Of a DNA stretch of 64,000 bases, positions 47,934 through 48,695 are shown piece after piece. The notes below the pieces were generated by a model that was not told the DNA's origin, ran no database searches, and saw only the letters and a list, made by a program, of their open reading frames with translations. This DNA comes from Fimbriimonas sp. (GTDB taxonomy: Bacteria > Armatimonadota > Fimbriimonadia > Fimbriimonadales > Fimbriimonadaceae): assembly GCA_031292555.1 (NCBI GenBank), contig JARLGV010000017.1:1-64000 (forward strand), in the 5' to 3' direction. A program made the translations under genes and the position numbers. Positions within the stretch are counted from its first letter, which is position 1, and the number at the start of each line of letters is the position of its first letter.

Positions 47934-48695
47934 TTAGGCTGACAGGATGGAGTTGACGGCACGCTGCAACTCGTCGACTGGAAGTTCACGATTGCCCGAT
48001 TTGTCTAGCACCCGCGTCACCGGCAGCGTCTTGCTGAATCCGCCCGTTGCCGAATCGAGGTCGGCGGCAATGTCGAGCATCTGCAATCCGTCTAGCAGGA
48101 CCTCCTCCAGAGGACGCGTTTCGAAGCGGCCCTTGATCCGCGACACGTACTCAAACACGCCTCGGATTCGCTCCGATCCAGAGCCCGCGCATGCGTAGGA
48201 GCCGTTCTGGAATCGCGCTCCGGCGCCATCGAAGAAGTAGACGCCGAAGTCGTCTCGCTTCTTGTCGTAGGCGGCCACGATCGGCAAGAACAGGCCAATT
48301 CCCTGCATCGCCATCGGTGCGTTCCCGGCAAGGGCACGGGAGATCTCCGTCAATTTGCCCTCAAGGGACATCTCCTGGAGCACCGTGCGGCGGTAATACT
48401 TGAACGAGTGCTTGAGGAAGCGGCATACCTCGACCGAACGAGCGAACGCGCCAGAAATCGCCACGACCGTCGAATCGTCGAGCGCCATGATCTTCTCTGC
48501 CTGATCGTACATGATCAGGTTTCCGGCGGTAGCTCTGCGGTCAGCCAACGTAAGCACGCCCTCGTCGTATCGGAGACACAGCACGGTGGTGCCGTGCGTC
48601 TCGAATGCGGGGTCGGCACTTATGGCCCCAAGGCCTTCGAACATCTTCCCAAAACCCGTAAGCTCGGCAAAGTCGCGCGCGCCTTCGAGGATCAT
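47934..48695 (-). CDS. prcB: 20S proteasome beta subunit
   Basis: The 253-residue protein is an Ntn hydrolase with a 35-residue propeptide. Cleavage at HG35/T36-T-V would expose T36 as the nucleophile. D52 and K68 fall exactly at mature positions 17 and 33, completing the proteasome catalytic triad. ALDDSTVVAISGAFA and YDKKRDDFGVYFFDGAG also match beta subunits. In other bacteria it forms heptameric rings with an alpha subunit and degrades tagged proteins. The ATG overlaps the UBact stop (ATGA), so the genes are coupled. No alpha-subunit gene is adjacent; the next gene downstream is on the opposite strand. Confidence 0.93.
   Translation of the reverse strand: MILEGARDFAELTGFGKMFEGLGAISADPAFETHGTTVLCLRYDEGVLTLADRRATAGNLIMYDQAEKIMALDDSTVVAISGAFARSVEVCRFLKHSFKYYRRTVLQEMSLEGKLTEISRALAGNAPMAMQGIGLFLPIVAAYDKKRDDFGVYFFDGAGARFQNGSYACAGSGSERIRGVFEYVSRIKGRFETRPLEEVLLDGLQMLDIAADLDSATGGFSKTLPVTRVLDKSGNRELPVDELQRAVNSILSA

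Follow-up and report, generated by a model that had tools for sequence, protein, structure and literature searches.

Genes for a putatively complete UBact-proteasome system, split over four loci, account for a proteasome beta-subunit gene without an adjacent alpha-subunit gene in Fimbriimonadaceae

The stretch analyzed here (hereafter the window) comprises 64,000 nucleotides (nt) of contig JARLGV010000017.1 from the draft genome of a Fimbriimonas species (assembly GCA_031292555.1; Armatimonadota, family Fimbriimonadaceae), and our subject is its prcB gene, which encodes a proteasome beta subunit and has no alpha-subunit gene beside it. The features at the locus, with product lengths in amino acids (aa), are as follows:

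47324-47848, forward strand: convergent gene on the 3' side of prcB, an open reading frame for a 174-aa secreted-looking protein
47872-47905, no strand assigned: terminator-like hairpin separating prcB from the convergent gene (15 pairs, 4-nt loop, T-rich flank)
47934-48695, reverse strand: prcB, proteasome beta subunit, 253 aa (PF00227, TIGR03690, catalytic residues, Foldseek)
48692-48874, reverse strand: ubact, Pup-like modifier, 60 aa, ending RQRSGQ (PF20513, 3e-21; NF033388, 2.7e-21)
48871-50346, reverse strand: dop, Pup-ligase-superfamily protein resembling deamidases/depupylases, 491 aa, with GTG as start codon (PF03136, 2.7e-134)
50346-51746, reverse strand: unannotated putative lipoprotein gene coupled to dop, 466 aa, with a signal peptide and the lipobox ALVGC

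A preliminary description made from the letters of the window had called 47934-48695 a proteasome beta subunit, and profile searches agreed, with matches to PF00227 (1.9e-22) and to TIGR03690, the bacterial 20S beta model (119.5 bits), compared to 25.1 bits at best for the HslV models. The translation begins with a propeptide of about 35 aa, followed by Thr1 at T36 (HG|TTV); Asp17, Arg19 and Lys33 (mature numbering) are conserved, and the H34-G35-T36 region around Thr1 is invariant in 24 aligned sequences, the catalytic threonine thus reading as intact. In the AlphaFold model (mean predicted local distance difference test score, pLDDT, 84), the fold resembles that of Mycobacterium tuberculosis (Mtb) and Rhodococcus PrcB, to which all top Foldseek matches belonged, and the best matches in the PDB were likewise PrcB structures.

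The start of ubact overlaps the stop of dop, and its stop overlaps the start of prcB, by 4 nt each (ATGA), so that prcB would close an operon, dop-ubact-prcB, in which tag, enzyme and protease genes are coupled. The small ubact gene between dop and prcB had been overlooked in the preliminary description; its product matched PF20513 and no other Pfam family, and in a 22-sequence alignment YRQRSG was invariant and the final residue was Gln or Glu. That description had also stated that no ligase gene adjoins prcB, which did not hold, since the gene two positions upstream belongs to the Pup-ligase superfamily; by its scores (TIGR03688, Dop, 358 bits versus TIGR03686, PafA, 262 bits) its product is best assigned to Dop rather than PafA. 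At all 20 Fimbriimonadaceae loci read, dop adjoins ubact-prcB. The genes recognized around prcB encode Dop, UBact, YceD and a member of the isochorismatase family, and neither prcA nor an ATPase gene adjoins it, as had been described. The operon likewise ends with prcB, followed by the hairpin and the opposite-strand gene; because terminator-like matches showed no enrichment over shuffles, reading the hairpin as a terminator rests on its position and stem length. The product of the convergent gene had no Pfam match, and a homolog of this gene was observed at 7 of 20 Fimbriimonadaceae prcB loci.

The window's own genome is a 6.46-Mb draft assembly of 140 contigs with 100% completeness. The search for PrcA, PafA and Mpa/ARC that had been proposed found all three in this assembly, in agreement with the earlier suggestion that the partner genes might lie elsewhere:

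C23:168437-169129: PrcA (PF00227 over cut-off; best NCBIfam match TIGR03691, the bacterial alpha model)
C127:15121-16494: PafA, a second Pup-ligase-superfamily (PF03136) protein (PafA 303.7 versus Dop 277.5 bits)
C124:30192-31895: ARC/Mpa ATPase (TIGR03689, 443.7 bits; proteasomal-ATPase oligonucleotide/oligosaccharide-binding (OB) domains PF17758 and PF16450)

The PDB matches of PrcA were Rhodococcus and Mtb PrcA only, the nearest solved structure to ARC was Mpa (9e-98), and two PF03136 proteins also occur in most Fimbriimonadaceae genomes. An additional conserved operon holding both prcA and pafA would, by the earlier reasoning, have made the split trivial; both genes are present, but each at its own locus. 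Every component of the UBact-proteasome pathway was found, one copy each: a tag ending SGQ/SGE (YRQRSG(Q/E) in alignment), Dop and PafA, the 20S alpha and beta subunits PrcA and PrcB, and ARC with its OB domains. Judged by the genes, Fimbriimonadaceae thus have a UBact-proteasome system that is complete. It differs from such systems elsewhere in that the clustered order, which is usual but not defining and is present in other families, is replaced in Fimbriimonadaceae by four loci, and in that dop is preceded by a lipoprotein gene coupled to it. The actinobacterial Pup-proteasome, as in Mycobacterium, has homologous PrcB, PrcA, PafA, Dop and ARC/Mpa and shares the C-terminal Gln on the tag, whereas here the tag is UBact (PF20513), prcA stands apart from prcB and the ARC tail has no GxYx.

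We surveyed 151 Armatimonadota genomes, and PrcA and PrcB were present in the identical 86. In some relatives PrcA had appeared to be missing (one or two PF00227 matches), an impression we rejected because a second search with a PrcA alignment found PrcA wherever PrcB was present in the genomes re-searched. With adjacency defined as within 1.2 kb on the same strand, 54 of the 55 proteasome-bearing genomes from other families, including the one sampled from the same order, had prcB and prcA adjacent, versus none of 31 Fimbriimonadaceae. Where both genes shared a contig in this sample of 31, they were 116 kb to 1.92 Mb apart; in a further member of the family outside the sample (G009), the distance was 18.5 kb. 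In the other Armatimonadota families, the loci read carry ARC-dop-ubact-prcB-prcA-pafA in one run, some with an inserted gene, the sampled other-family genome of the same order keeps dop-ubact-prcB-prcA-pafA, and the complete cluster is also present in Candidatus Fraserbacteria (L026). The whole system is absent from two reduced 1.5-Mb Fimbriimonadaceae genomes (G029 and G048).

Collectively, we put the probability at about 95% that prcB supplies one of the two subunit types of an ordinary bacterial 20S proteasome (alpha7-beta7-beta7-alpha7) within a complete UBact pathway, and that the alpha gene is not beside it because the ancestral cluster broke up in an ancestor of Fimbriimonadaceae. By homology to pupylation, Dop would deamidate UBact-Gln to UBact-Glu, PafA would ligate the tag onto substrate lysines, and ARC/Mpa would recognize UBact, unfold the substrates and thread them through the PrcA ring, these last three proteins being encoded on other contigs; the PrcA ring would gate entry to the PrcB chamber, in which a self-processed N-terminal threonine would cut the substrates, and Dop could also take UBact off again. 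The contrast in adjacency between the family and its relatives makes a single break-up at the family base the simplest reading: the six-gene cluster ARC-dop-ubact-prcB-prcA-pafA would have become four loci once and stayed split, with prcA, pafA and ARC each moving to a locus of its own and being inherited vertically since. Alpha and beta genes of the archaeal 20S proteasome commonly occupy separate chromosomal sites and still form one particle, so split genes are no obstacle, although archaea are a different lineage and have no UBact/Pup tagging.

Several points weigh against this interpretation. PrcA, PafA and Dop scored below their NCBIfam equivalog cut-offs, which were built on actinobacteria (PrcA reached 62.9 bits with TIGR03691, against a cut-off of 139 bits), and their names therefore rest on relative scores, context and alignments. 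In the draft assembly of the window's own genome, the distances from prcB to its partners amount to "different contigs" only, a gap filled by relatives assembled in single contigs. ARC has no Mpa-type GxYx docking tail, so that docking of the ATPase must differ in detail. What the sequences show directly is that the genes are present, which families they belong to, how their order is distributed and which catalytic residues they encode, and from this assembly, stoichiometry, conjugation and degradation are inferred.

Three other explanations were weighed against the two-type proteasome with a dispersed cluster. The loss of prcA from the operon and its replacement elsewhere by a horizontally acquired alpha subunit appears very unlikely. 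PrcA does diverge more than PrcB within the family (42-56% versus 54-83% identity to the proteins of the window's genome), but the same faster divergence is seen against families with linked genes (35-43% for PrcA, 46-58% for PrcB), and in the tree the PrcA sequences of Fimbriimonadaceae group in a single supported clade (96/98) inside Armatimonadota PrcA, which argues that the relocated prcA is a vertically inherited ortholog. Even less probable is that PrcB alone builds a single-type ring, as in HslV or Anbu, with the distant alpha gene unrelated or vestigial, an alternative raised in the preliminary description. The absence of an adjoining alpha gene is the sole point in its favor, while the PrcA frame is intact and strongly constrained (24 invariant columns in 19 sequences), a bacterial-type PrcA co-occurs perfectly with PrcB, and PrcB is set apart from HslV by the profile scores and modeled fold given above and by the tree (99/94 and 99/98), in which two sequences from the eight HslV loci fetched represent HslV, and no Anbu sequence is included. 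PrcB shares the Ntn-hydrolase fold and Thr1 catalysis with HslV (of HslVU), but its profile scores, fold and place in the tree assign it to the 20S beta family, and it comes with an alpha partner. Anbu belongs to the same superfamily, and no Anbu-type operon (transglutaminase, ATP-grasp, Alpha-E) was found among the genes flanking prcB. Some relatives carry HslV-like genes separately. The weakest explanation, that the separation is an artefact of a fragmented draft assembly, might draw on the 140 contigs and on the end of contig C23 only 2.5 kb past prcA, but is ruled out by the relatives in which single contigs, including single-contig genomes, show 116 kb to 1.92 Mb between the genes, and prcB is followed by the convergent gene, not by a contig end.

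Some individual loci showed further arrangements. Among the genomes sampled from other families, only G069 has prcB and prcA on separate contigs (L091 and L092); its pafA lies on the prcA contig, and its prcB, with another gene after it, is about 2 kb from a contig end, so that either the genes may have separated independently a second time or the assembly may be fragmented there. At one locus (L040, 14239-18399), prcA stands beside M28 and M50 peptidase genes, a 5'-nucleotidase-C gene and ribosomal protein L11; in several relatives an M28 gene lies ahead of prcA in the same orientation, and in the window's genome it is convergent. At another (L027, 6709-7422, forward strand), a frame with a PrcA-like start runs, by eye, into a flagellar/type III secretion ATPase-like stretch and is probably a chimera of metagenome assembly.

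The putative lipoprotein gene overlaps the start of dop by 1 nt (TAGTG), and the two are likely co-transcribed, judging from this spacing. All 31 proteasome-bearing Fimbriimonadaceae sampled have a full-length homolog upstream of prcB and in the same orientation, at 1.6-2.0 kb in 30 of them, which leaves room for dop and ubact, and at 3.8 kb in one; neither the other families nor the two Fimbriimonadaceae genomes that lack the proteasome gave a full-length match. The protein evolves fast (24-37% identity), yet the Gly-Cys of its lipobox is invariant in 17 aligned sequences. No Pfam, NCBIfam or PHROG model matched it over cut-off, and for its beta-rich AlphaFold model (mean pLDDT 74) the best PDB match reached only E 5e-3 and a template modeling (TM) score of 0.12, so that the fold points to no function.

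The ARC C-termini were compared across Fimbriimonadaceae, other Armatimonadota and Fraserbacteria (ARC genes at loci L100-L129, L081-L099 and L026), and all 44 lacked the GxYx/HbYX tyrosine, with no Tyr among their six final residues and a consensus ending of R-[KR]-[NTS]-[VI]-[IV]. The GxYx docking motif of actinobacterial Pup-proteasome ATPases has been described (PMC6466877, PMC4254994); in Mtb, the ATPase tail is GQYL, of which the tyrosine stacks on an arginine of the alpha pocket and the carboxylate pairs with a lysine there (PMC6466877). Lys50 of PrcA, which aligns with the pocket lysine of Mtb PrcA, was invariant in 37 of 37 sequences, and the position aligned with the pocket arginine was Arg in 1 of 37. 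We take these pocket positions to be Lys52 and Arg26 of Mtb PrcA. A docking mode different from that of Mpa is plausible from these alignments. Only tentatively, and with more doubt than confidence, we suggest that in Fimbriimonadaceae translational coupling of the UBact tagging genes to the fast-evolving lipoprotein, with the other proteasome genes relocated, may tie production of the tag and beta subunit to the cell envelope, and that ARC may dock on the alpha ring across Armatimonadota by a tail without tyrosine, Arg-[Lys/Arg]-x-[Val/Ile]-[Ile/Val], where Mpa and Bpa use GxYx.

The UBact pathway itself is already known: the description of UBact in Gram-negative bacteria, together with the components for conjugation and the proteasome, is credited to Lehmann et al. 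2017 (doi 10.1016/j.bbrc.2017.01.037, as cited in PMC12751074), and Fuchs et al. 2017 (PMC5666114) include armatimonadete proteasome subunits. In the open-licence literature searched, we found no account of the cluster being scattered throughout the family. The beta subunit without an adjacent alpha subunit is thus explained and mostly ordinary, and a false lead is removed, as there is no alpha-less bacterial proteasome here. The dop-coupled lipoprotein and the tyrosine-less ARC tails look more interesting than the orphan prcB and appear testable. For the family, the analysis places a gene-cluster break-up, with prcA and prcB together in all but one of the other-family genomes and apart in every Fimbriimonadaceae genome sampled, so that coupling in an operon is evidently not needed to maintain a 1:1 alpha/beta complex.
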